Shown: positions 13,279 through 47,039 of the stretch, piece by piece
Position numbering within the stretch: position 1 is the first letter of the stretch
Layout: each line of letters begins with the position of its first letter
NCBI GenBank assembly: GCA_003209195.1
Contig: QCSF01000005.1
Location: 1 to 64,000, forward strand
Direction: 5' to 3'
Source of the DNA: Pelagibacteraceae bacterium AG-470-E16
Lineage (GTDB): Bacteria; Pseudomonadota; Alphaproteobacteria; Pelagibacterales; Pelagibacteraceae
DNA: 64,000 nt
The notes under the pieces: generated by a model
Seen by the model: the letters and a program-made list of their open reading frames with translations, nothing else
The model's database searches: none
What the model was told of the DNA's origin: nothing
Translations under genes and position numbers: made by a program

Positions 13279-13448
13279 TGAAAATAAATAAAGAAATTTT
13301 AGAAATAATAGTATGTCCATTGTCAAAAGAAAAATTAATTTATGATGAAATTAATCAGTGTTTGATAGCAAAAAATTCTAAATTAGCTTATCCAATTAAA
13401 AATGGTATTCCAATTATGATTGTAGAAGAAGCTAAAAGTCTAGATTAA
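13278..13448 (+). CDS. Trm112-like / UPF0434 family small protein (56 aa)
   Basis: Manual translation [56 protein letters not shown]; start overlaps upstream stop (TGATG). Not in ORF track. Confidence 0.87.
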
Positions 13449-14713
13449 CCTTTGTTCATTGAGTCAAAAAACTCAGGGTTGTTTTTTGTATCTCTTAATT
13501 TACCAATTAGGAATTCTATGGCATCCATAGAACCCATCGGATTTATTATTCTTCTAAGTACATTCATTTTTGATAATTCGTCTTTTTCGAATAAAAGTTC
13601 TTCTTTTCTTGTTCCTGATTTGGCGACATCAATTGCTGGGTAAGTTCTTTTGTCGGCAACTTTACGGTCTAAGACAACTTCTGAATTTCCCGTACCTTTA
13701 AATTCTTCAAAAATAACCTCGTCCATTCTAGAACCTGTTTCAATTAAAGCTGTGGATATTATTGTTAATGAACCTCCTTCTTCTATATTTCTTGCTGCTC
13801 CAAAAAATCTTTTTGGTCTTTGCAATGCATTTGCATCAACTCCACCTGTTAAAACCTTTCCAGAGCTTGGGACAACTGCATTATAAGCCCTTCCTAATCT
13901 TGTGATTGAATCTAGTAGTATAACTACATCCTTTTTATGTTCACATAATCTTTTCGCTTTTTCAATTACCATTTCAGCGACTTGAACATGTCGTTGAGCC
14001 GGTTCGTCAAATGTTGAACTTACAACTTCCCCTTTTACAGTTCTTTGCATGTCTGTTACTTCTTCAGGCCTCTCGTCAATTAACAAAACTATTAAATATA
14101 TTTCGGGATGATTGGCTGTGATAGAATTTGCTATATTTTGTAAAATTACTGTTTTTCCCGTTCGTGGTGGAGCAACAATTAAAGACCTTTGACCTTTTCC
14201 AATTGGTGCAACCAAATCTATTACACGTGCTGTAACATCTGTTTTTCGCTCGGTTTTTATCTTTTCAATTTCAAGCTTAATTTTTTCTTCAGGATATAAA
14301 GGAGTTAAATTATCAAAATTAATTTTATGTTTAGCTTTTTCAGGATTTTCGAAATTTATTTTATTTACTTTTAATAAAGCAAAGTATCTTTCTTGATCTT
14401 TTGGTGCTCTGATTTCTCCTTCAACAGTATCTCCTTTTCTTATTCCAAATCTACGAATTTGACTTGGGCTTACATATATATCATCTGGGCCAGGTAAATA
14501 ATTTGATTCTATAGCTCTTAAGAATCCAAATCCATCTTGTAACGTTTCTAAAACTCCAGTAGCAGTTATTTGCTCGCCCTTTTCTGCTAATTTCTTTAAT
14601 ATTGAAAATAATATTTCTTGTTTTCTAAGAGTGCTGGGATTTTCAATTCCAAGTTTTTCTGCTTGTGATATTAAATCAGCTGGAGTTTTGTCTTTAAGTT
14701 GTTGTAAATTCAT
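13445..14713 (-). CDS. rho: Transcription termination factor Rho
   Basis: [60 protein letters not shown]. Confidence 0.98.
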
Positions 14714-15061
14714 AGAGAAAATAATGAAGAAAATATCTTTATAACTAATTTAATTTACTATTGCAATAGTAATTAATTATTAAATTTATAACTTAAATAT
14801 TTAAAGTTTATATTTATTATTTGTTTTAGTAGATATGGTTAATATTGGTGCTAACTTTTTAATAAGACTTTATACAATTTGATAAACACTAAAATTCTAT
14901 TTTTTCTATGTTTTTTATAATTATTAACAAAATTATAATTAGTAGAATAAAGTTATTAAAAATAATAAATATTTTATAATTATGTACTAATATTTTATAA
15001 GTTTGATATTTTAATAATTCATTTGATATAAGATTGTTATTAAAAATTTATAAACAACTTT
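14714..15061. other. Predicted chromosomal replication origin (oriC) region
   Basis: Very AT-rich gap between divergent rho and the DUF299 gene, beside the alphaproteobacterial origin cluster; palindrome, direct repeats, DnaA-box-like nonamers and ATGGTTAA. Confidence 0.7.
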
Positions 15062-15886
15062 ATGAACAAAACTTTTGATTTTTTTTTAGTATCAGATTCT
15101 ACAGGGGAAACTTTAGACAGGATATATCTTGCTTTAAAAGCACAGTTTCCTGATAATAATTATAAAATTCATCACTTTGCATTTATGAGAACAACAACTC
15201 AAACGGCAACTTTAATCGAGGCTTGTAAAAAAGTAAAAAACCCAATTATACTTTATACTTTAGTAGAAAAACAAACCACTAATCATATTATAAATGAATG
15301 TAAAACATTTGATATTCCTTGTTTTGGTTTACTAGATTATTTAATACCACAATTTGAAAAAATTTTTTCGCAGAAAGCAACTTTAAAACCAAGCGGCCAA
15401 CATCAGCTTAATACTGAATACTACAACAAAATCGAGGCTATTCAATTTACTTTAGAACACGATGATGGTCAAAAAGTTGATACAGCGATTAATGCTGATA
15501 TCATAATATTTGGAGTAAGCAGAACGAGCAAAACACCAACTTCTATCTATCTAGGAGAAAGAGGGTATAAAGTTTCAAATATTCCTTTAGTCCTTCATCA
15601 AAAACCACCTGTATTTATTTTTAAATCTAATGCTGTTAAAATAGGTTTAACAATAGATCCGATAAGGCTTTCAGATGTTAGAAAAAACAGGATTAGTATT
15701 CTGAAAGATAAACAATCTTCCTCTTACATAAATATGAAAATTATTCAAAAAGAAATTCAAGAAGCAAAAAAATTATTTTTACAAAACAAAATACCATACA
15801 TAGATGTAACAAGAAAATCTGTTGAAGAGACAGCTGCCTCAATAATTAAAATTTTTGAAATTAGTCAAGAGAAAAAGAATGCTTAA
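15062..15886 (+). CDS. ppsR: DUF299 pyruvate,phosphate dikinase / PEP synthase regulatory protein
   Basis: FFLVSDSTGETLDRI and IIIFGVSRTSKTPTSIYLGERGYKVSNIPLV. Confidence 0.94.
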   Translation: MNKTFDFFLVSDSTGETLDRIYLALKAQFPDNNYKIHHFAFMRTTTQTATLIEACKKVKNPIILYTLVEKQTTNHIINECKTFDIPCFGLLDYLIPQFEKIFSQKATLKPSGQHQLNTEYYNKIEAIQFTLEHDDGQKVDTAINADIIIFGVSRTSKTPTSIYLGERGYKVSNIPLVLHQKPPVFIFKSNAVKIGLTIDPIRLSDVRKNRISILKDKQSSSYINMKIIQKEIQEAKKLFLQNKIPYIDVTRKSVEETAASIIKIFEISQEKKNA

Positions 15887-16466
15887 GATAATATTAGCTT
15901 CTAATAGTGAAATTAGATTAAAGATATTAAAAGATAATAATTTCCATGTTAAACAAGTACCATCAATGATTGATGAAGAAGAGGTAAAAATTTCTTTAAT
16001 TAACAATGGAGCAACATGTCTTCACATAGCAAAGAATTTATCAGAACTTAAAGCAAATAGAGTTAGTCTTAAATTTCAAGATGAGATTGTAATTGGAGCT
16101 GATCAAGTAATGGAAATTGATGGTAAAAATTACAGCAAGCCTAAAAACAAACTACAAGCAAAAAAAATTCTTAAATTACTAAATAATAATGAACATTACC
16201 TTCATTCTGCAATTTGTGTTTCAAAAGCAGGAAATATGATTTCTAATTTTCATGAAAGCTGTCTTCTTAAGATGAAAAATTTAAATGAAGCGGAAATAGA
16301 CAAATATATTGAAAATTTAGATTTAAATAAAATGTTACAATATGGAGTTTATCAAATAGAAGCTGGTGGTTCAGATCTTTTTACTAAAACACATGAAGAC
16401 ATGGAGGCCATAATGGGAATGCCGATGAAACAACTTAAACCATATTTAATTAATTTGAAAGTATGA
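15879..16466 (+). CDS. maf: Maf-family nucleotide pyrophosphatase (start moved from ORF-track 15855)
   Basis: MLKIILASNSEIRLKILKD; IGADQVMEIDGKNYSKPKN; neighbours ppsR and aroE. Confidence 0.92.
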   Translation: MLKIILASNSEIRLKILKDNNFHVKQVPSMIDEEEVKISLINNGATCLHIAKNLSELKANRVSLKFQDEIVIGADQVMEIDGKNYSKPKNKLQAKKILKLLNNNEHYLHSAICVSKAGNMISNFHESCLLKMKNLNEAEIDKYIENLDLNKMLQYGVYQIEAGGSDLFTKTHEDMEAIMGMPMKQLKPYLINLKV

Positions 16467-17242
16467 AAAAATTTTTAGTTATTGGAAATCCAATAAAACA
16501 TTCTTTGTCTCCTAGATTACATAATTATTGGTTACAAAAAAATAATATTCAGGGGATCTATCACAAAAAACTAATACAAGAGCAAGAAATTGAAAGCTTA
16601 TTCAAATCCAATTCAGATATTTGTGGAATTAATGTGACGGTTCCTTTTAAAAAAAGTGTCATAAATTATTGTAATAAATTATCTGGCTTGGCTTTAAAAA
16701 CCCAATCAATAAACACAATATCGTTTCAAAAGAGAGAAATTGTTGGTGATAACACCGATATTTATGGTTTTGAACAATCGTTAAAAATTACTAAATTTAA
16801 TGGAACAAATAAAACAGCTTTAATACTTGGTGCTGGTGGTGTTGTGCCATCCATAGTAATTGGTTTAAACAATCTGGGAGTTAAAAATATAATTATAACA
16901 AATAGGACCAGAAATAAATCTGAAATATTAGCAAAACGGTTTAATCTTGAGGTAATCGATTGGGGAAGCATTGTTAATTTTGATATTGTTATAAATTGTA
17001 CAAGCGTAGGATTAAATGAAAATGATAGTTTAAACTTGGACTTTTCAAATATTACAAATAAAATTTTTTATGACACAATCTATAATTCCAAAACGAGATT
17101 TCTCATTGATGCTAAAAATTCAGGAAACCAAATAATAGATGGTAAAACGATGTTTTTATATCAAGCTCAAAAATCTTTTGAAATATGGCATGGTATCCAA
17201 CCTGAAGTCAATGAAAGACTGAACAGCATATTTTATGATTAG
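16463..17242 (+). CDS. aroE: Shikimate dehydrogenase
   Basis: VIGNPIKHSLSPRLHNYW, INVTVPFKK, GDNTDIYGF, LGAGGVVPSIV. Confidence 0.96.
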   Translation: MKKFLVIGNPIKHSLSPRLHNYWLQKNNIQGIYHKKLIQEQEIESLFKSNSDICGINVTVPFKKSVINYCNKLSGLALKTQSINTISFQKREIVGDNTDIYGFEQSLKITKFNGTNKTALILGAGGVVPSIVIGLNNLGVKNIIITNRTRNKSEILAKRFNLEVIDWGSIVNFDIVINCTSVGLNENDSLNLDFSNITNKIFYDTIYNSKTRFLIDAKNSGNQIIDGKTMFLYQAQKSFEIWHGIQPEVNERLNSIFYD

Positions 17243-17807
17243 AATTGCGGTCCTTGGTGATATTGGTTCTGGTAAATCATTTTTTGCAAGGCAACTTAAA
17301 ATTCCATTATTTTCTGCTGATCAAGTTGTACAAAATTTATACGATAAAAATAAAAAATTGTTTAAAAAATTAAAAAAACTTTTCCCAAAAAATTTAAATT
17401 ATTTCCCAATACGAAAATCTCAATTAGTACATATAATAAATGAAAAGCCAGATAATTTAAAAAAAATTATAAAAATAATACATCCTATGGTTAGAAAAGA
17501 ATTATACATTTTTACAAAAAAAAACCGTAACAAAAAAGTTGTAGTTTTAGATATCCCTTTGTTTTTAGAAAATAAATTGAACCGCGACACTGACATTATA
17601 GTTTTCATTGAAACTAAACCAAATAAATTATTATCAAAGTTAAGACAAAGAAAAAATTTTAACATGAAAATTTTCAAATTGTTAAAATCTTTGCAAATAC
17701 CCCCTGAAAAAAAGAAACTCAAAGCTGATTTTGTGGTTAAAAATAATTTTAATAGTGCAAAAATAAAAAAAGTAGCTAAAAATTTACTTGATCAGATTAT
17801 TTTATGA
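17235..17807 (+). CDS. coaE: Dephospho-CoA kinase
   Basis: IAVLGDIGSGKSFFARQL, FSADQVV, LDIPLFLENK. Confidence 0.92.
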   Translation: MIRIAVLGDIGSGKSFFARQLKIPLFSADQVVQNLYDKNKKLFKKLKKLFPKNLNYFPIRKSQLVHIINEKPDNLKKIIKIIHPMVRKELYIFTKKNRNKKVVVLDIPLFLENKLNRDTDIIVFIETKPNKLLSKLRQRKNFNMKIFKLLKSLQIPPEKKKLKADFVVKNNFNSAKIKKVAKNLLDQIIL

Positions 17808-18475
17808 AAGAAATATTACTTGATACTGAAACTACAGGCTTGTCAACCGTTACTGACAAATTAATAGAAATAGCTTGTATAGAAATTGATGATCATATTC
17901 CCACAGGTAGAAAATTTCACTTTTTTTTAAATCCTGAAAAAGAAATATCTCAAGGTGCTTATGAAACACACGGGATATCCAAAGAATTCTTAAATGATAA
18001 ACCTAAGTTTAAAGATATCGCAAAAAAATTCATAAAATTTATCCATGAAAAAAAATTAGTTATTCATAATGCAGAATTTGATCTAGCTTTTTTAAATAGA
18101 GAACTAAAGTCAGTGTCTGAAAAACCAATATCAAAAGACTATATTATTGATACTCTTAATATAGCAAGAGAAAAATTTCCTGGTGCACAAAATAGTTTAG
18201 ATGCTTTATGTAAAAGATTTAAGATTGATAATTCGAGGAGACAAAAACACTCTGCATTACTGGACTGTGAACTTCTAGCTAAAGTTTATATTGAACTTCT
18301 TGAAAAAAGAGAACCCTCTTTAGCACTTGATAATGACGGTCAAGGTGATGTAATTAAAAATGTTAAAAATATAAAAAATCGACAAAAAATAACCTTACAA
18401 ATCACAAAAGAAGAGATAGATTTGCATCAAAAATTTTTAAAAAAATTTATTCCAAAGTCTCGAATGATTAATTAG
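17804..18475 (+). CDS. dnaQ: DNA polymerase III epsilon subunit
   Basis: EILLDTETTGL, HNAEFDLAFLNREL, HSALLDCELLAKVYIEL exonuclease motifs. Confidence 0.96.
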   Translation: MKEILLDTETTGLSTVTDKLIEIACIEIDDHIPTGRKFHFFLNPEKEISQGAYETHGISKEFLNDKPKFKDIAKKFIKFIHEKKLVIHNAEFDLAFLNRELKSVSEKPISKDYIIDTLNIAREKFPGAQNSLDALCKRFKIDNSRRQKHSALLDCELLAKVYIELLEKREPSLALDNDGQGDVIKNVKNIKNRQKITLQITKEEIDLHQKFLKKFIPKSRMIN

Positions 18476-18911
18476 TATATTGTTCTCGATATAATTCCTC
18501 GAAGTCAACCTCTTTATTTAAATTAAAATTTTTAAAACCTGATTTTTGAAATAGGTATGTAACAATATCTTTCATATAGTCAAAATGTTCTTTTGGTATT
18601 TTAACTAGTATAATTTTTTTCATTTCCTCTGGTGTTATTTTTGTATTTATAATTTTAAATAAAATAGATACGCATATTTCTGCGTGAATTCTTTTCTTGA
18701 TTATTTCGGGGGCTTTTAAATGAAATTTACAATTTAGTTCGATAAGATTTTTTTTGTATGGTTTGCTATTGATATCAAGTTTAGTTGTATAAGATCCTAA
18801 ATTTTGCGCAGCATCTACAAAATTGTCAGGGGATGGTATTTCAAATGAAATATCTTTTATATATTTCGCAACTATTTCATAATCTTTTTTTTCAATGCTT
18901 GTTTTTGTCAT
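18468..18911 (-). CDS. secB: Protein-export chaperone SecB
   Basis: YIKDISFEIPSPDNF N-terminus; dnaQ-adjacent as in the conserved cluster. Confidence 0.9.
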   Translation of the reverse strand: MTKTSIEKKDYEIVAKYIKDISFEIPSPDNFVDAAQNLGSYTTKLDINSKPYKKNLIELNCKFHLKAPEIIKKRIHAEICVSILFKIINTKITPEEMKKIILVKIPKEHFDYMKDIVTYLFQKSGFKNFNLNKEVDFEELYREQYTN

Positions 18912-34317: not shown

Positions 34318-34935
34318 ATGATTCGATCAGAATATTTTAAAAAAAACGTTTCACGTGAAACAATTATGAAATTATCAAAATTTCATAATATTCTAATAGA
34401 TAATAATAAAAAAATGTCGTTAATATCAAAAAATAGTGAAAAAATTGCAGTTGAGAGACATTATGTGGATTGTGCTCAGATGATAAAGTATTTTGATAAA
34501 TCTGATAAATTAATATTAGATATTGGATCTGGAGCAGGTTTGCCGGGAATAATACTTGATATAATAAAGAGCGATTATAATTTAAATTTCTCAACACATT
34601 TAATTGATAAAAGTCCAAAAAAGGCTAAATTTTTGCATAATGTGAATAGTTTACTTAATCTCGATATTAAAATACATAATTGTGATTTAAGACAAATTAA
34701 TGACAGAAGCTTTACAACGCTGGTTAGCAGAGCTTTTAAACCAATGAAAGAATTTTTTGAAATTATATTAGATACAGATATTAAATTTAAAAAAATAATT
34801 CTTATGAAGGGCGAGAAATTCATGAACGAATTAAAAATTGCAAAAAAATATTTTGAAATAAATTGTGAGTCATTCAAAAGTTTAACAAACCCTAAATCGA
34901 AACTTTTTGTAATAAAAAGTGTATCTAAAATCTAA
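34318..34935 (+). CDS. rsmG: 16S rRNA (guanine527-N7)-methyltransferase
   Basis: NVSRET N-terminus, DIGSGAGLPGIILDI, between mnmG and parA. Confidence 0.95.
   Translation: MIRSEYFKKNVSRETIMKLSKFHNILIDNNKKMSLISKNSEKIAVERHYVDCAQMIKYFDKSDKLILDIGSGAGLPGIILDIIKSDYNLNFSTHLIDKSPKKAKFLHNVNSLLNLDIKIHNCDLRQINDRSFTTLVSRAFKPMKEFFEIILDTDIKFKKIILMKGEKFMNELKIAKKYFEINCESFKSLTNPKSKLFVIKSVSKI
34347..34362. promoter_or_regulatory. parS centromere-like site inside rsmG
   Basis: CGTTTCACGTGAAACA: 15/16 match to consensus TGTTTCACGTGAAACA; parAB lies about 0.6 kb downstream. Confidence 0.92.
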
Positions 34936-35727
34936 ATGTCCAAAGTAATCTCTATAATTAATCAAAAAGGTGGGGTTGGCAAAACTACTTCAACAATTAA
35001 TCTTGGATGTGCTTTGGCTAATCAAGGTCAAAAAATTTTATTGATTGATTTAGATCCGCAAGGAAATGCATCGACAGGTTTGGGCATAGAGCCAAGTACA
35101 AGGTTAAGAACAATTTATGAGTTTCTTTTAAATCCAGATCTTGACCCATCATCATTTATTATAAGTTCTAATATTGAAAATTTAGACGTTATTACTGCAA
35201 ATGTTGATTTATCAGGTTTAGAAACGGAAGTTGCTGAAAATAATAAAAGAGCTTTTTTTTTAAAAGACATAGTAGCAAAAATTAATGAAAAAAGTGAGTA
35301 TAATCATATCTTAATTGATTGTCCGCCCTCCTTAAGTTTACTAACAATTATGGCATTGGTGGCATCAAATAACGTGATAATACCTCTTCAAACTGAGTTT
35401 TTCGCATTAGAAGGTGTATCTCAACTAATAAAAACTATTGAGAGAGTAAAACAAAATTTAAACACGTCATTAGATATTCAGGGTGTAATTTTAACCATGT
35501 ATGACAAAAGAAATAAACTTTGTTCACAAGTAGAAAGTGAAGCAAGAAGATATTTTGAAGATAAAGTCTATAAATCTGTGATACCGAGAAACGTGAGAAT
35601 ATCGGAAGCACCATCACACGGTGTACCAGTAATTGAATATGACAAAAATTGTACTGGAACAATTGCATATGAGAATTTAGCTAAAGAAGTTTTAGAGCAA
35701 TATAACAACAATAATGTTGCAGCGTAA
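34936..35727 (+). CDS. parA: Chromosome partitioning ATPase ParA
   Basis: INQKGGVGKTTSTINLG, DLDPQGNASTGLG, IDCPPSLSLL. Confidence 0.98.
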   Translation: MSKVISIINQKGGVGKTTSTINLGCALANQGQKILLIDLDPQGNASTGLGIEPSTRLRTIYEFLLNPDLDPSSFIISSNIENLDVITANVDLSGLETEVAENNKRAFFLKDIVAKINEKSEYNHILIDCPPSLSLLTIMALVASNNVIIPLQTEFFALEGVSQLIKTIERVKQNLNTSLDIQGVILTMYDKRNKLCSQVESEARRYFEDKVYKSVIPRNVRISEAPSHGVPVIEYDKNCTGTIAYENLAKEVLEQYNNNNVAA

Positions 35728-36590
35728 TGACTAAGTTTAAAGGTTTAGGTAAAGGATTATCAGCTTTAATTGGTGATAAAGATTTATATAATCAAGACAA
35801 TGTTACAGTCCAAAGTTTGAAAACACATAAGACGCCGATTCATCAATTAATTCCTAATCAATATCAACCTAGAAAACATTTTGAAAAACAACAATTAGAA
35901 GAACTTGCTACCTCAATTAAAAACAGAGGAATTATTCAGCCAATAGCAGTAAGAAAGATATCTGATAATCAATATGAGATTATAGCAGGTGAAAGAAGGT
36001 GGAGAGCCGCTCAAATCGCAAATCTACATGATGTTCCTACAGTTCTATTAGAAGCAAATGATGAATTAACCGCAGAATTTGCAGTTTTAGAAAACGTTCA
36101 AAGAGAGGGTTTAAACGCTTTAGAGGAGGCAAATGGATATCAAACATTGATAAATAAATTCAATTATACTCATGATAAAATAGCTGAAATGATAGGAAAA
36201 AGTAGGGCTTATATAGCAAACACATTAAGGTTAAAAAAATTACCATCTGAAATTCAAATTATGATTACTAAGAGATTGTTGACCCCAGGTCATGCAAGGT
36301 CATTAATCGAAGTAAAAAATAATATTGAACTAGCGAAAGTAATTATTAAGAAAAATTTATCAGTAAGGCAAGCTGAGCTATTAAGTAAAAAAAGTTATAG
36401 TGTTAACCGAAAATTAAGCATCAAAGATGTTGATCCGAACATTAAAGATTTAGAAAATAGTCTTGAAAAAAAAACAGGCATGAAAGTTGCAATTGAAAAT
36501 AAAAAGAACAATAAAGGCCGAGTTAGTTTTGAATATAAAAACCTGGATCAACTTAATCAACTAGTTAACAATGTTAAGAGTAAGTATTAG
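35727..36590 (+). CDS. parB: Chromosome partitioning protein ParB
   Basis: KGLGKGLSALIGD, PNQYQPRKHFE, YEIIAGERRWRAAQIA, ENVQREGLNALEEA. Confidence 0.98.
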   Translation: MTKFKGLGKGLSALIGDKDLYNQDNVTVQSLKTHKTPIHQLIPNQYQPRKHFEKQQLEELATSIKNRGIIQPIAVRKISDNQYEIIAGERRWRAAQIANLHDVPTVLLEANDELTAEFAVLENVQREGLNALEEANGYQTLINKFNYTHDKIAEMIGKSRAYIANTLRLKKLPSEIQIMITKRLLTPGHARSLIEVKNNIELAKVIIKKNLSVRQAELLSKKSYSVNRKLSIKDVDPNIKDLENSLEKKTGMKVAIENKKNNKGRVSFEYKNLDQLNQLVNNVKSKY

Positions 36591-41850: not shown

Positions 41851-42338
41851 TTAATAATTTTGATTTTTGTTTTTTGTGAAATCGAAGCAAGTATTTCTAG
41901 TAAGTCTTTTTTCTTTAGTCCGATACAACCCATAGTCTTATCATAATTTTTTCTTGCCAAATGAATAAAAATTGCACTACCTTTATTTTTTTTAACTGGA
42001 TGTGTATTATAATTTATTACAACAACAATGTTATAAAGATTATCCTTTCTATATAGCTTTTCTATTTGATGGCTATTTGAAAATATTAACTTGTTATAAA
42101 ATTTACTACTAGGTCGATCACACCAAGCCATGTTTTTTTCAATAACAATTTTTTTTAATTTTGTTTTTAGATTTAATATCCTGTCTTTTCTATAAAAGAC
42201 GTTACCTAGTGAAAATATTCCAGATGGGGTTTTTTTATCACCCTCTTTTTTATCCTTTGATACACCTCTTATGCCTAAGGCACATTTATATAGCTTTTTA
42301 TTGTGTATAAGCGTTCCGTTTTTATTTACTATAATCAT
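41847..42338 (-). CDS. L,D-transpeptidase (YkuD) family protein
   Basis: GDKKTPSGIFSLG and IFIHLARKNYDKTMGCIGLKKKDL. Confidence 0.87.
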   Translation of the reverse strand: MIIVNKNGTLIHNKKLYKCALGIRGVSKDKKEGDKKTPSGIFSLGNVFYRKDRILNLKTKLKKIVIEKNMAWCDRPSSKFYNKLIFSNSHQIEKLYRKDNLYNIVVVINYNTHPVKKNKGSAIFIHLARKNYDKTMGCIGLKKKDLLEILASISQKTKIKIIN

Positions 42339-42359
42339 ATAAATTTATATTTTATATTT

Positions 42360-43013
42360 ATGCAAAATTACTCAATCATAACCGTCGGGTCATCTGTTTT
42401 TTTTGAGTGCATGAAAGAACAAAAAAGTGAGTACAATCTTCAGAATATAAAGGATTTTAAAGAGGTTAAAGAGATTTTAAAGACACCACTGATCGATATT
42501 TATGTTTTTTTATTTTTTATCGATAATTTAGAAAGATTAGATCTCAAAGACCTTAAAAAAATTAAGTATCCAAAAATATTTTTTTCAAAAAAAAGTGAAA
42601 ATTTTAAACATCTTAAAAAAGATAACATTTTTAGTAGTTTTTTGCTTTTACCAATAAATTATCAAGATTTAGAAAAGATCATTAAGTTAGCAATTTTGAA
42701 GTTTAAATTTCTTTTTCAATCTAATGTAATTATAGGAAAATATACTTTAGATAAAAATGTTAGAAGAATTAATTATGGGAAGAAGTCGATAAAACTTACC
42801 GAAAAAGAAGTTGAAATTATTCTTTATTTATCAAGTAAGAAAGAAGGTGCAAGCAAATCAGAAATAATGAAAGATATTTGGTCACATGGAAATGAAATTG
42901 ATACACACACTTATGAAACGCATCTCTATCGATTAAGGCAAAAAATTCAAAATAAACTTAATGACAAAAATTTTATTACAATTGAAGATGGGAAATATTT
43001 TATATCATTATGA
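42360..43013 (+). CDS. OmpR-type winged-helix regulator with degenerate receiver-like N-terminus (start moved from 42303)
   Basis: C-terminal IKLTEKEVEIILYLSSKKEGASKSEIMKDIWSHGNEIDTHTYETHLYRLRQKI. Confidence 0.82.
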   Translation: MQNYSIITVGSSVFFECMKEQKSEYNLQNIKDFKEVKEILKTPLIDIYVFLFFIDNLERLDLKDLKKIKYPKIFFSKKSENFKHLKKDNIFSSFLLLPINYQDLEKIIKLAILKFKFLFQSNVIIGKYTLDKNVRRINYGKKSIKLTEKEVEIILYLSSKKEGASKSEIMKDIWSHGNEIDTHTYETHLYRLRQKIQNKLNDKNFITIEDGKYFISL

Positions 43014-45511: not shown

Positions 45512-45567
45512 GATAATTTCATAACATTGATAGACTTTTTTGCAAAAGATATGTATACAATACTTAG

Positions 45568-45635
45568 TTTTCAGGGGCGGTTAAGCCTGAGATGTACCCT
45601 TTAAACCTGATCCAGATAATGCTGGCGAAGGAAGA
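45568..45635 (+). ncRNA. TPP (THI-box) riboswitch
   Basis: AGGGGCGGTTAAGCCTGAGATGTACCCTTTAAACCTGATCCAGATAATGCTGGCGAAGGAAGA matches CTGAGA..ACCC..AACCTGATC.GGATAATgCcaGCGaAGG; P1 pairs TTTTC with GAAGA. Confidence 0.95.
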
Positions 45636-45641
45636 AAACGG

Positions 45642-47039
45642 ATGAATGTAATTTTAATAATTTCACTTTTTGTTCTTTGTTTGGGATTTATGTCCTTTGG
45701 TTATTATGTTTCAAGAGGTAAAATTTCTCAGTCTGCTTTTTTAGTCAGTGATCGTAACATAAATGTTTTTAGTCTAACTTTTAGTTTAACAGCTTCATGC
45801 TTCGGAATATGGATTTTAATTGGACCAGCTGAAGCTTCCACTTGGGGTGGAATTGGAGCGGTAATTGGTTATGCAGCAGGACAAAGTTTTGCTTTTTTAT
45901 ATTTTATAAAAATTGGAGTCAAAGTTAGAAAAATGTTACCTAGTGCAAAAAGTTTAACTGAGGTTATAGCGAGAAGATATGATTTAAAAGTACTTAAGCT
46001 AATTCTTTTTTTAACAATTCTTTACTTGTATGTTTATTTTTGTGCTGAGGTTACAGCTATAGCCAAAGTTGTTAATTTAATTTTAGGAATACCTTTGTGG
46101 TTAACTGCAGCTTTAATTATTATTTCAACATTAATTTACTCCCTTAAGGGTGGCTTAAAAATTTCGATTATTACAGATAAATTTCAGTTCTGGATAATTA
46201 TTGTTTTCTTAATAATTATTTTTTTTATTCTAAATCAAAAAATAAATTTTCTTTCACCAGATGTAATTTTTAATAAACCATTAAGTATAAATATTGGCTT
46301 TGGAGGATTTACTGCGGGTTTAACCTTCTTTATTGCGGTTTTTGCAACAAATTTGTTTGATCAAGGCATCTGGCAAAGAGTTTACGCTTCCAAAAACGTT
46401 TTAGTTTTAAAGAAAGGTTTTATCGCTGCTTTTATTATAGTCTTTATCACAATTTTACTTCTAGGTATGGTTGGTATTTTTGCTTCTTTTTATGGAAAAA
46501 TCAAAGATCCCAGTACTATTATATTTTCATTGCTGATTAATAAGGAATTTTTATTTTTAAATTTAGTAATATTAATTTTATCTTTAACACTGGTATTAAG
46601 TAGTTTAGATACATTAATTGCAAGTATTTCAAGCCTATTTGTAATTCATACCAATAAATTTATGCAAAAAAAATATGTTAATAATTTTTATATTATCGGA
46701 TGTATTTTTCTAGCTGGCTCAGCATTTTATATATCTTCAAAAGGTTTAAGCGTTTTATATTTATTTTTACTTGCTGATTTATTATGTTGCGCGGCTGTAG
46801 TTCCGATTTTTTATGGATTTTATAAAAAAAAAATAAAATCTAAAAATATATTTAAATCTATCATTTTTGGAATAATTTTTGGTTTACTGCTTTTTCCTAG
46901 TACAGACTTTTCAAAAAGTTTATTAGTGGGATTCATATTTGATAAATCATTATTTCCTGATGCTCTATCAAATAATTTATTGTTTTGGTCTTTTTTGGCA
47001 GCTTTATGTTCTCCAATAATTTTCGTTAAGAAAAATTAA
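45642..47039 (+). CDS. thiV: SSS-family transporter under TPP riboswitch, ThiV-like
   Basis: FLVSDRNINVFSLTFSLTASCFGIWILIGPAEASTWGGIGAVIGYAAGQ; immediately downstream of the riboswitch. Confidence 0.85.
   Translation: MNVILIISLFVLCLGFMSFGYYVSRGKISQSAFLVSDRNINVFSLTFSLTASCFGIWILIGPAEASTWGGIGAVIGYAAGQSFAFLYFIKIGVKVRKMLPSAKSLTEVIARRYDLKVLKLILFLTILYLYVYFCAEVTAIAKVVNLILGIPLWLTAALIIISTLIYSLKGGLKISIITDKFQFWIIIVFLIIIFFILNQKINFLSPDVIFNKPLSINIGFGGFTAGLTFFIAVFATNLFDQGIWQRVYASKNVLVLKKGFIAAFIIVFITILLLGMVGIFASFYGKIKDPSTIIFSLLINKEFLFLNLVILILSLTLVLSSLDTLIASISSLFVIHTNKFMQKKYVNNFYIIGCIFLAGSAFYISSKGLSVLYLFLLADLLCCAAVVPIFYGFYKKKIKSKNIFKSIIFGIIFGLLLFPSTDFSKSLLVGFIFDKSLFPDALSNNLLFWSFLAALCSPIIFVKKN

Follow-up and report, generated by a model that had tools for sequence, protein, structure and literature searches.

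The rho-ppsR gap of a SAR11 bacterium of the HIMB114 genus as a probable DnaA-type replication origin

Results and Discussion

The locus and its flanking genes

The sequence analysed here (referred to as the window, 64 kb in length) is contig 5 of a SAR11 genome that belongs to the HIMB114 genus and comprises 0.97 Mb in 39 contigs, with a completeness of 76%. Between the divergent genes rho and ppsR lies a non-coding gap of 348 bp with an AT content of 87%, which begins one base past the rho start codon and ends one base before the ppsR start (Table 1). This agrees with the sequence-only reading, which had described an AT-rich non-coding gap of about 350 bp between these divergent genes and had predicted a chromosomal replication origin in it. 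NCBIfam matches were obtained for Rho, the PpsR-type regulator, Maf, AroE, CoaE, DnaQ, SecB (weak), MnmE, MnmG and a ParA-family ATPase, and the order maf-aroE-coaE-dnaQ-secB that had been read after ppsR is thereby confirmed, with the SecB match being the weak one. To the right of the gap, mnmE starts at 16 kb and parB ends at 22 kb, which puts mnmE, mnmG and parAB close to the distance of about 20 kb given earlier. There is no hemE within the 64-kb window; its absence, with rho placed directly at the gap, had also been noted, and is real and derived within the HIMB114 genus.

The gap is kept in 38 ppsR loci. In HIMB114 (G005) and CC_bin40 (G006), the two complete relatives, only 0.2–0.5% of windows of 350 bp are as AT-rich as the genome's own gap. 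A search of the gap for inverted and direct repeats gave AT-rich chance pairs only.

Table 1. Coordinates of the candidate origin, its sites and the neighbouring features (positions in the window unless a genome is named).
Feature	Position	Strand	Basis and remarks
Candidate oriC (rho-ppsR gap)	14714..15061		Skew fit in two complete relatives, DnaA-box cluster, gap kept in 38 ppsR loci
rho	13445..14713	-	NCBIfam TIGR00767, E 2e-212; synteny; adjoins the gap where other genera have hemE
ppsR (DUF299, COG1806)	15062..15886	+	NCBIfam NF003742, E 2e-83; canonical right-hand neighbour of alphaproteobacterial oriC
maf-aroE-coaE-dnaQ-secB, origin-side cluster	15855..18911		NCBIfam, synteny
DnaA-box-like TGATAAACA (relatives TTATAAACA)	14880..14888	+	Alignment; one mismatch to TTATNAACA; 182 bp before ppsR
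DnaA-box-like TTATTAACA (relatives TTATTCAC, TTATTAAC)	14921..14929	+	Alignment, motif scan
DnaA-box-like TTATAAACA	15048..15056	+	No other 9-mer of the gap is as well conserved within the genus (96%)
DnaA-box-like TTATGAACA	15060..15068	+	Overlaps the ppsR start codon; in tandem with the 15048..15056 site
Candidate DNA-unwinding element	14916..15015		Least stable 100 bp of the 64-kb window, nearest-neighbour energy scan
Second candidate unwinding element	14770..14819		Least stable 50 bp of the window, same energy scan
parS-like site CGTTTCACGTGAAACA	34347..34362		One mismatch to parS; between mnmG and parA
parA-parB	34936..36590	+	ParA family by NCBIfam; orthologues in the same place in HIMB114 and CC_bin40; parB named by synteny and parS
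ORF-free stretch after folD (387 bp, 79% AT)	CC_bin40 162080-162466; HIMB114 1083548-1083934		Conserved between both genomes

Strand asymmetry in complete relatives

Because the window genome is fragmentary, the whole-genome tests were run on HIMB114 and on CC_bin40, a complete metagenome-derived chromosome, both of which are congeneric with it; dnaA was not detected in the window genome at its present completeness. In the third-position GC skew, gene orientation (coefficients of 0.06–0.07) outweighs replication side (0.035–0.04), and therefore the two were fitted jointly. In the resulting two-arc fit of the third-codon-position skew corrected for gene orientation (5-kb grid, support of about ±20 kb), the best-fit origin was found at 140 kb in CC_bin40, where the gap occupies 141.3–141.7 kb, and at 1060 kb in HIMB114, where it occupies 1061.65–1062.00 kb and where an alternative at 1090 kb was just 1.8 log units worse. 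The leading-strand skew switch expected of a DnaA-type oriC is thus seen by the corrected fit in both complete congeners.

In both genomes the uncorrected cumulative GC-skew minimum was displaced from the gap by 18–25 kb in the direction of rho. A minimum at the gap had been named beforehand as the check on the prediction, and the outcome in the two congeners does not refute it: the corrected origin falls at the gap, and gene orientation offers the simplest explanation for the offset of the raw minimum. The TA skew at third codon positions gave no information on the origin. The terminus of HIMB114 was fitted at 405 kb, with the raw skew maximum at 469 kb.

DnaA-box-like sites and DNA stability

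The element that bears the boxes runs 7 bases into ppsR, to position 15068, and the conservation of the ATGAAC part of TTATGAACA may have coding reasons in part. The motif TTATNMACA occurs three times in the window gap against 0.17 expected; none of 1000 simulations reached three. In HIMB114 and CC_bin40, the four sites at the gap are the genome-wide maximum (0.05 expected per 360 bp), followed by places with two or three. None of 394 permuted versions of the motif equalled it in the gap, and the hemE-ppsR gap of HTCC1062 holds the top TTATNMACA cluster within the first 340 kb examined. The tandem pair occurs a single time, where ppsR begins, in the window genome, HIMB114, CC_bin40 and two others (G002 and G004), and the exact pair is missing from three further congeners.

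A de novo k-mer comparison of 31 non-redundant hemE/rho-ppsR gaps with AT-rich windows of the same genus returned TATTAACA, TTATTAAC, TATAAACA and TTATGAAC as the top enriched 8-mers, all of them corresponding to a DnaA box whose sixth position is A. The form TTATNAACA carries A at this position, where the canonical box has C, and its other fixed positions match TTATNCACA. It was counted 75 times in the 31 gaps, with 4.3 expected, and the canonical TTATNCACA, with eight occurrences against 1.0 expected, is enriched as well. Pooled DnaA-box-like sites amount to 83 against 5.3 expected and are present in 29 of the 31 gaps; these counts are non-independent, since the gaps share ancestry, and the genome-wide uniqueness tests are free of such pooling. 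Exact TTATNCACA is absent from the gap of the window, and a scan of the 64-kb window for it with up to one mismatch gave no excess (86 sites, 108 expected). The box cluster is unique in the genome, by its TTATNMACA maximum in HIMB114 and CC_bin40 and by the tandem pair in the window genome, and has a consensus that differs from the canonical one at position 6. DnaA of both HIMB114 and CC_bin40 retains the RDHTTV recognition motif. For certain AT-rich mycoplasmas TTATTAACA has been proposed to be the DnaA box (PMC2751442), so such drift of the box has a parallel.

By nearest-neighbour energy at the 350-bp scale, the gap ranks within the top 0.02% of lowest stability in the 64-kb window, and the predicted stability thus points to the easily melted AT-rich element expected of a DnaA-type oriC.

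Heme genes and the history of the left flank

Wherever other genera of Pelagibacteraceae were examined, the gap is bordered by hemE, and both HTCC1062 and a sister-genus locus (L017) show the order rho-hemJ-hemH-hemE-gap-ppsR. In the HIMB114 genus hemE, hemH and hemJ are all missing between rho and the gap. The loss of hemE at the gap is derived within this genus, the position being homologous to that in the sister genera, and rho now adjoins the candidate origin because the hemE-hemH-hemJ block was lost. HIMB114 carries a heme cluster at 408622-415596 (L129:8622-15596), composed of 5-aminolevulinate synthase, hemC, hemB, hemE, hemH, hemF and hemJ, and this place (408.6–415.6 kb) is near the fitted terminus. 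Its hemE is only 28% identical to that of HTCC1062, and a matching hemC-hemB-hemE-hemH-hemF block is present on contig 10 of the window genome, around position 17162 (L189). The simplest reading is that the terminus-proximal cluster replaced the old origin-side heme genes.

One congener, G002, was considered as an exception with a canonical-type hemE and was rejected, for its contig C2 (L188) holds a second rho-hemJ-hemE-coaE-dnaQ block that comes from another lineage, most likely as contamination. G002 also has its own rho-gap-ppsR. The C2 block, with the order rho-hemJ-hemE-gap-coaE-dnaQ and without ppsR, maf and aroE, itself shows the ppsR side of the origin lost. Further, PF03618 (ppsR) had no match in the 24 genomes of a second family (G037-G060), all more than 80% complete, which suggests that the neighbour on the right of the origin was lost in this family.

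Partition site and regulatory features

At the orthologous spot between mnmG and parA, both HIMB114 and CC_bin40 have a perfect parS, TGTTTCACGTGAAACA, and no other parS within two mismatches was found in either genome. The parS lies 19 kb from the gap. CtrA sites of the form TTAA-N7-TTAA number zero in the gap of the window and are at chance level in the 31 gaps (10 against 8.5 expected), and none of the 31 contains GANTC, for which 5.3 occurrences would be expected. No CtrA protein exceeded the model cut-off in 41 genomes, with a cut-off that one of 14 controls passes. The strict IHF consensus is absent from the window gap and at chance level over the 31 gaps; HU/IHF-family proteins are present. 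Overall, there is no sign of CtrA control of this origin.

Two other features of the window are recorded here. An OmpR-type regulator with the PF00486 DNA-binding domain and no NCBIfam match at E 1e-15 is encoded at 42303-43013 (+), and the receiver domain of its HIMB114 counterpart is poorly conserved. At 45563-45650 (+) there is a TPP riboswitch (68.8 bits), directly before a 465-aa ORF (45642-47039).

Alternative explanations

Divergent rho and ppsR need promoters, and the gap could be simply a double promoter or leader for the two, AT-rich like SAR11 spacers in general, with the origin elsewhere; each complete relative has 32–37 stretches of 250 bp or more without an ORF, and gap length alone is not unique. 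We regard this as very improbable, since the gap and its sites persist where the left-hand gene is hemE and not rho, the unique box cluster and the skew fit both fall on the gap, and promoters and an origin can coexist. The raw skew would instead place the origin some 20 kb from the gap in the direction of rho, within the 387-bp intergenic stretch after folD, which is kept in both complete relatives and has the raw and detrended skew minima within about 2–4 kb. However, this stretch contains no TTATNMACA site, the corrected fit there is 2.9 log units worse in CC_bin40 (at about 160 kb) and 1.8–2.3 worse in HIMB114 (1085–1090 kb), and gene orientation affects the raw minimum here, so that an origin at this place is hardly to be expected either. 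The stretch had no Rfam match.

DnaA boxes beside dnaA are common in many bacteria, and a box cluster there instead of in the gap had been named as the finding that would speak against the prediction. Near dnaA in HIMB114 and CC_bin40 we found one or two isolated TTATNMACA sites and no cluster, the unique cluster being the one in the gap; dnaA is about 72 kb from the gap, and its position is 11.3 log units worse than the best fit in both genomes. An origin beside dnaA is therefore extremely improbable. It is also conceivable, if unlikely, that the gap is the origin and that a regulator other than DnaA recognises the repeated TTATNAACA sites, as they carry A at position 6, where the canonical box has C, and binding of DnaA to this form is predicted. 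Against this, the sites depart from TTATNCACA at a single fixed position, the gaps are enriched in TTATNCACA as well, DnaA keeps its recognition motif, and TTATTAACA is the DnaA box proposed for mycoplasmas (PMC2751442).

Proposed mechanism and significance

Taken together, the rho-ppsR gap is very probably the chromosomal replication origin, of the DnaA type and at the place ancestral for Alphaproteobacteria, with drifted boxes and a changed flank, and the earlier origin prediction is supported by the corrected skew and the unique box cluster in two complete congeners. From the computed features (position, box cluster, instability, synteny and no CtrA over the model cut-off) we infer DnaA binding, melting, helicase loading and initiation at this place, with bidirectional replication from a single origin. 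DnaA, the gene of which is about 72 kb away in the relatives, would bind three or four boxes of the TTATNAACA form that share one direction, two in the middle of the gap and two in tandem where ppsR starts, and would melt the extremely AT-rich DNA between them. DnaB would then be loaded and two forks would proceed outward, while the parS/ParAB site 19 kb off may segregate the new origins. The order hemE-oriC-ppsR is the ancestral alphaproteobacterial arrangement, from which the hemE-hemH-hemJ block was lost in this genus, bringing rho next to an oriC that would work without CtrA regulation.

On a wider scale, we consider it rather likely that a CtrA-independent origin is common to the whole of Pelagibacteraceae and uses the drifted box TTATNAACA with the DnaA recognition motif unchanged, and that in the HIMB114 genus the terminus-proximal heme cluster freed the hemE side, so that rho became the neighbour. 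A SAR11 replication study located the terminus by coverage (PMC9589681). In the literature searched, with DoriC and subscription papers outside it, we found no paper placing the SAR11 origin by sequence, and earlier in silico predictions may exist. With the TTATNAACA signature, origins can be mapped in SAR11 assemblies that are fragmented, and the case offers a clean test of how the initiator tolerates drift of its box in a streamlined genome without CtrA. It also shows that the conserved origin of Alphaproteobacteria can lose boundary genes and yet remain in place.

Comparison with known systems

The Cori of Caulobacter crescentus (hemE-oriC-ppsR/COG1806) has, like the locus described here, ppsR on the right-hand side, an AT-rich intergenic origin and partition genes nearby. 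On its left is hemE, which the sister SAR11 genera share and the genus of the window does not: here hemE-hemH-hemJ are gone and rho abuts, the boxes are of the TTATNAACA form, no CtrA or IHF site is above chance and no CtrA protein is over the cut-off. Published criteria for such origins include the hemE or COG1806 position, DnaA, CtrA and IHF sites, genome-wide uniqueness and raised AT (PMC1914354). In the present case the position, the uniqueness and the AT content agree with them, and because hemE as a boundary, sites for CtrA and boxes of the canonical form do not, we speak of an oriC of the DnaA type in a homologous position and not of a full Caulobacter-type origin.

For Rickettsia, Wolbachia and Ehrlichia, AT-rich origins were placed in silico at, or derived from, the hemE/COG1806 position, with few CtrA sites in several species (PMC1914354). 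Their boxes were scored as TTATNCACA, and IHF sites were found. The Wolbachia origin likewise kept one boundary gene, in that case hemE, which here is the boundary that was lost (PMC1914354). In Mycoplasma hominis, M. mobile and M. arthritidis, also of an AT-rich lineage, TTATTAACA is likewise the proposed DnaA box, although these bacteria are unrelated and their boxes lie beside dnaA (PMC2751442). Ca. Pelagibacter ubique HTCC1062 differs in having hemE followed by hemH-hemJ-rho on the left and a smaller gap, and shares with the present locus an AT-rich gap before ppsR, which there measures 284 bp, has 85% AT and contains four TTATNMACA sites.
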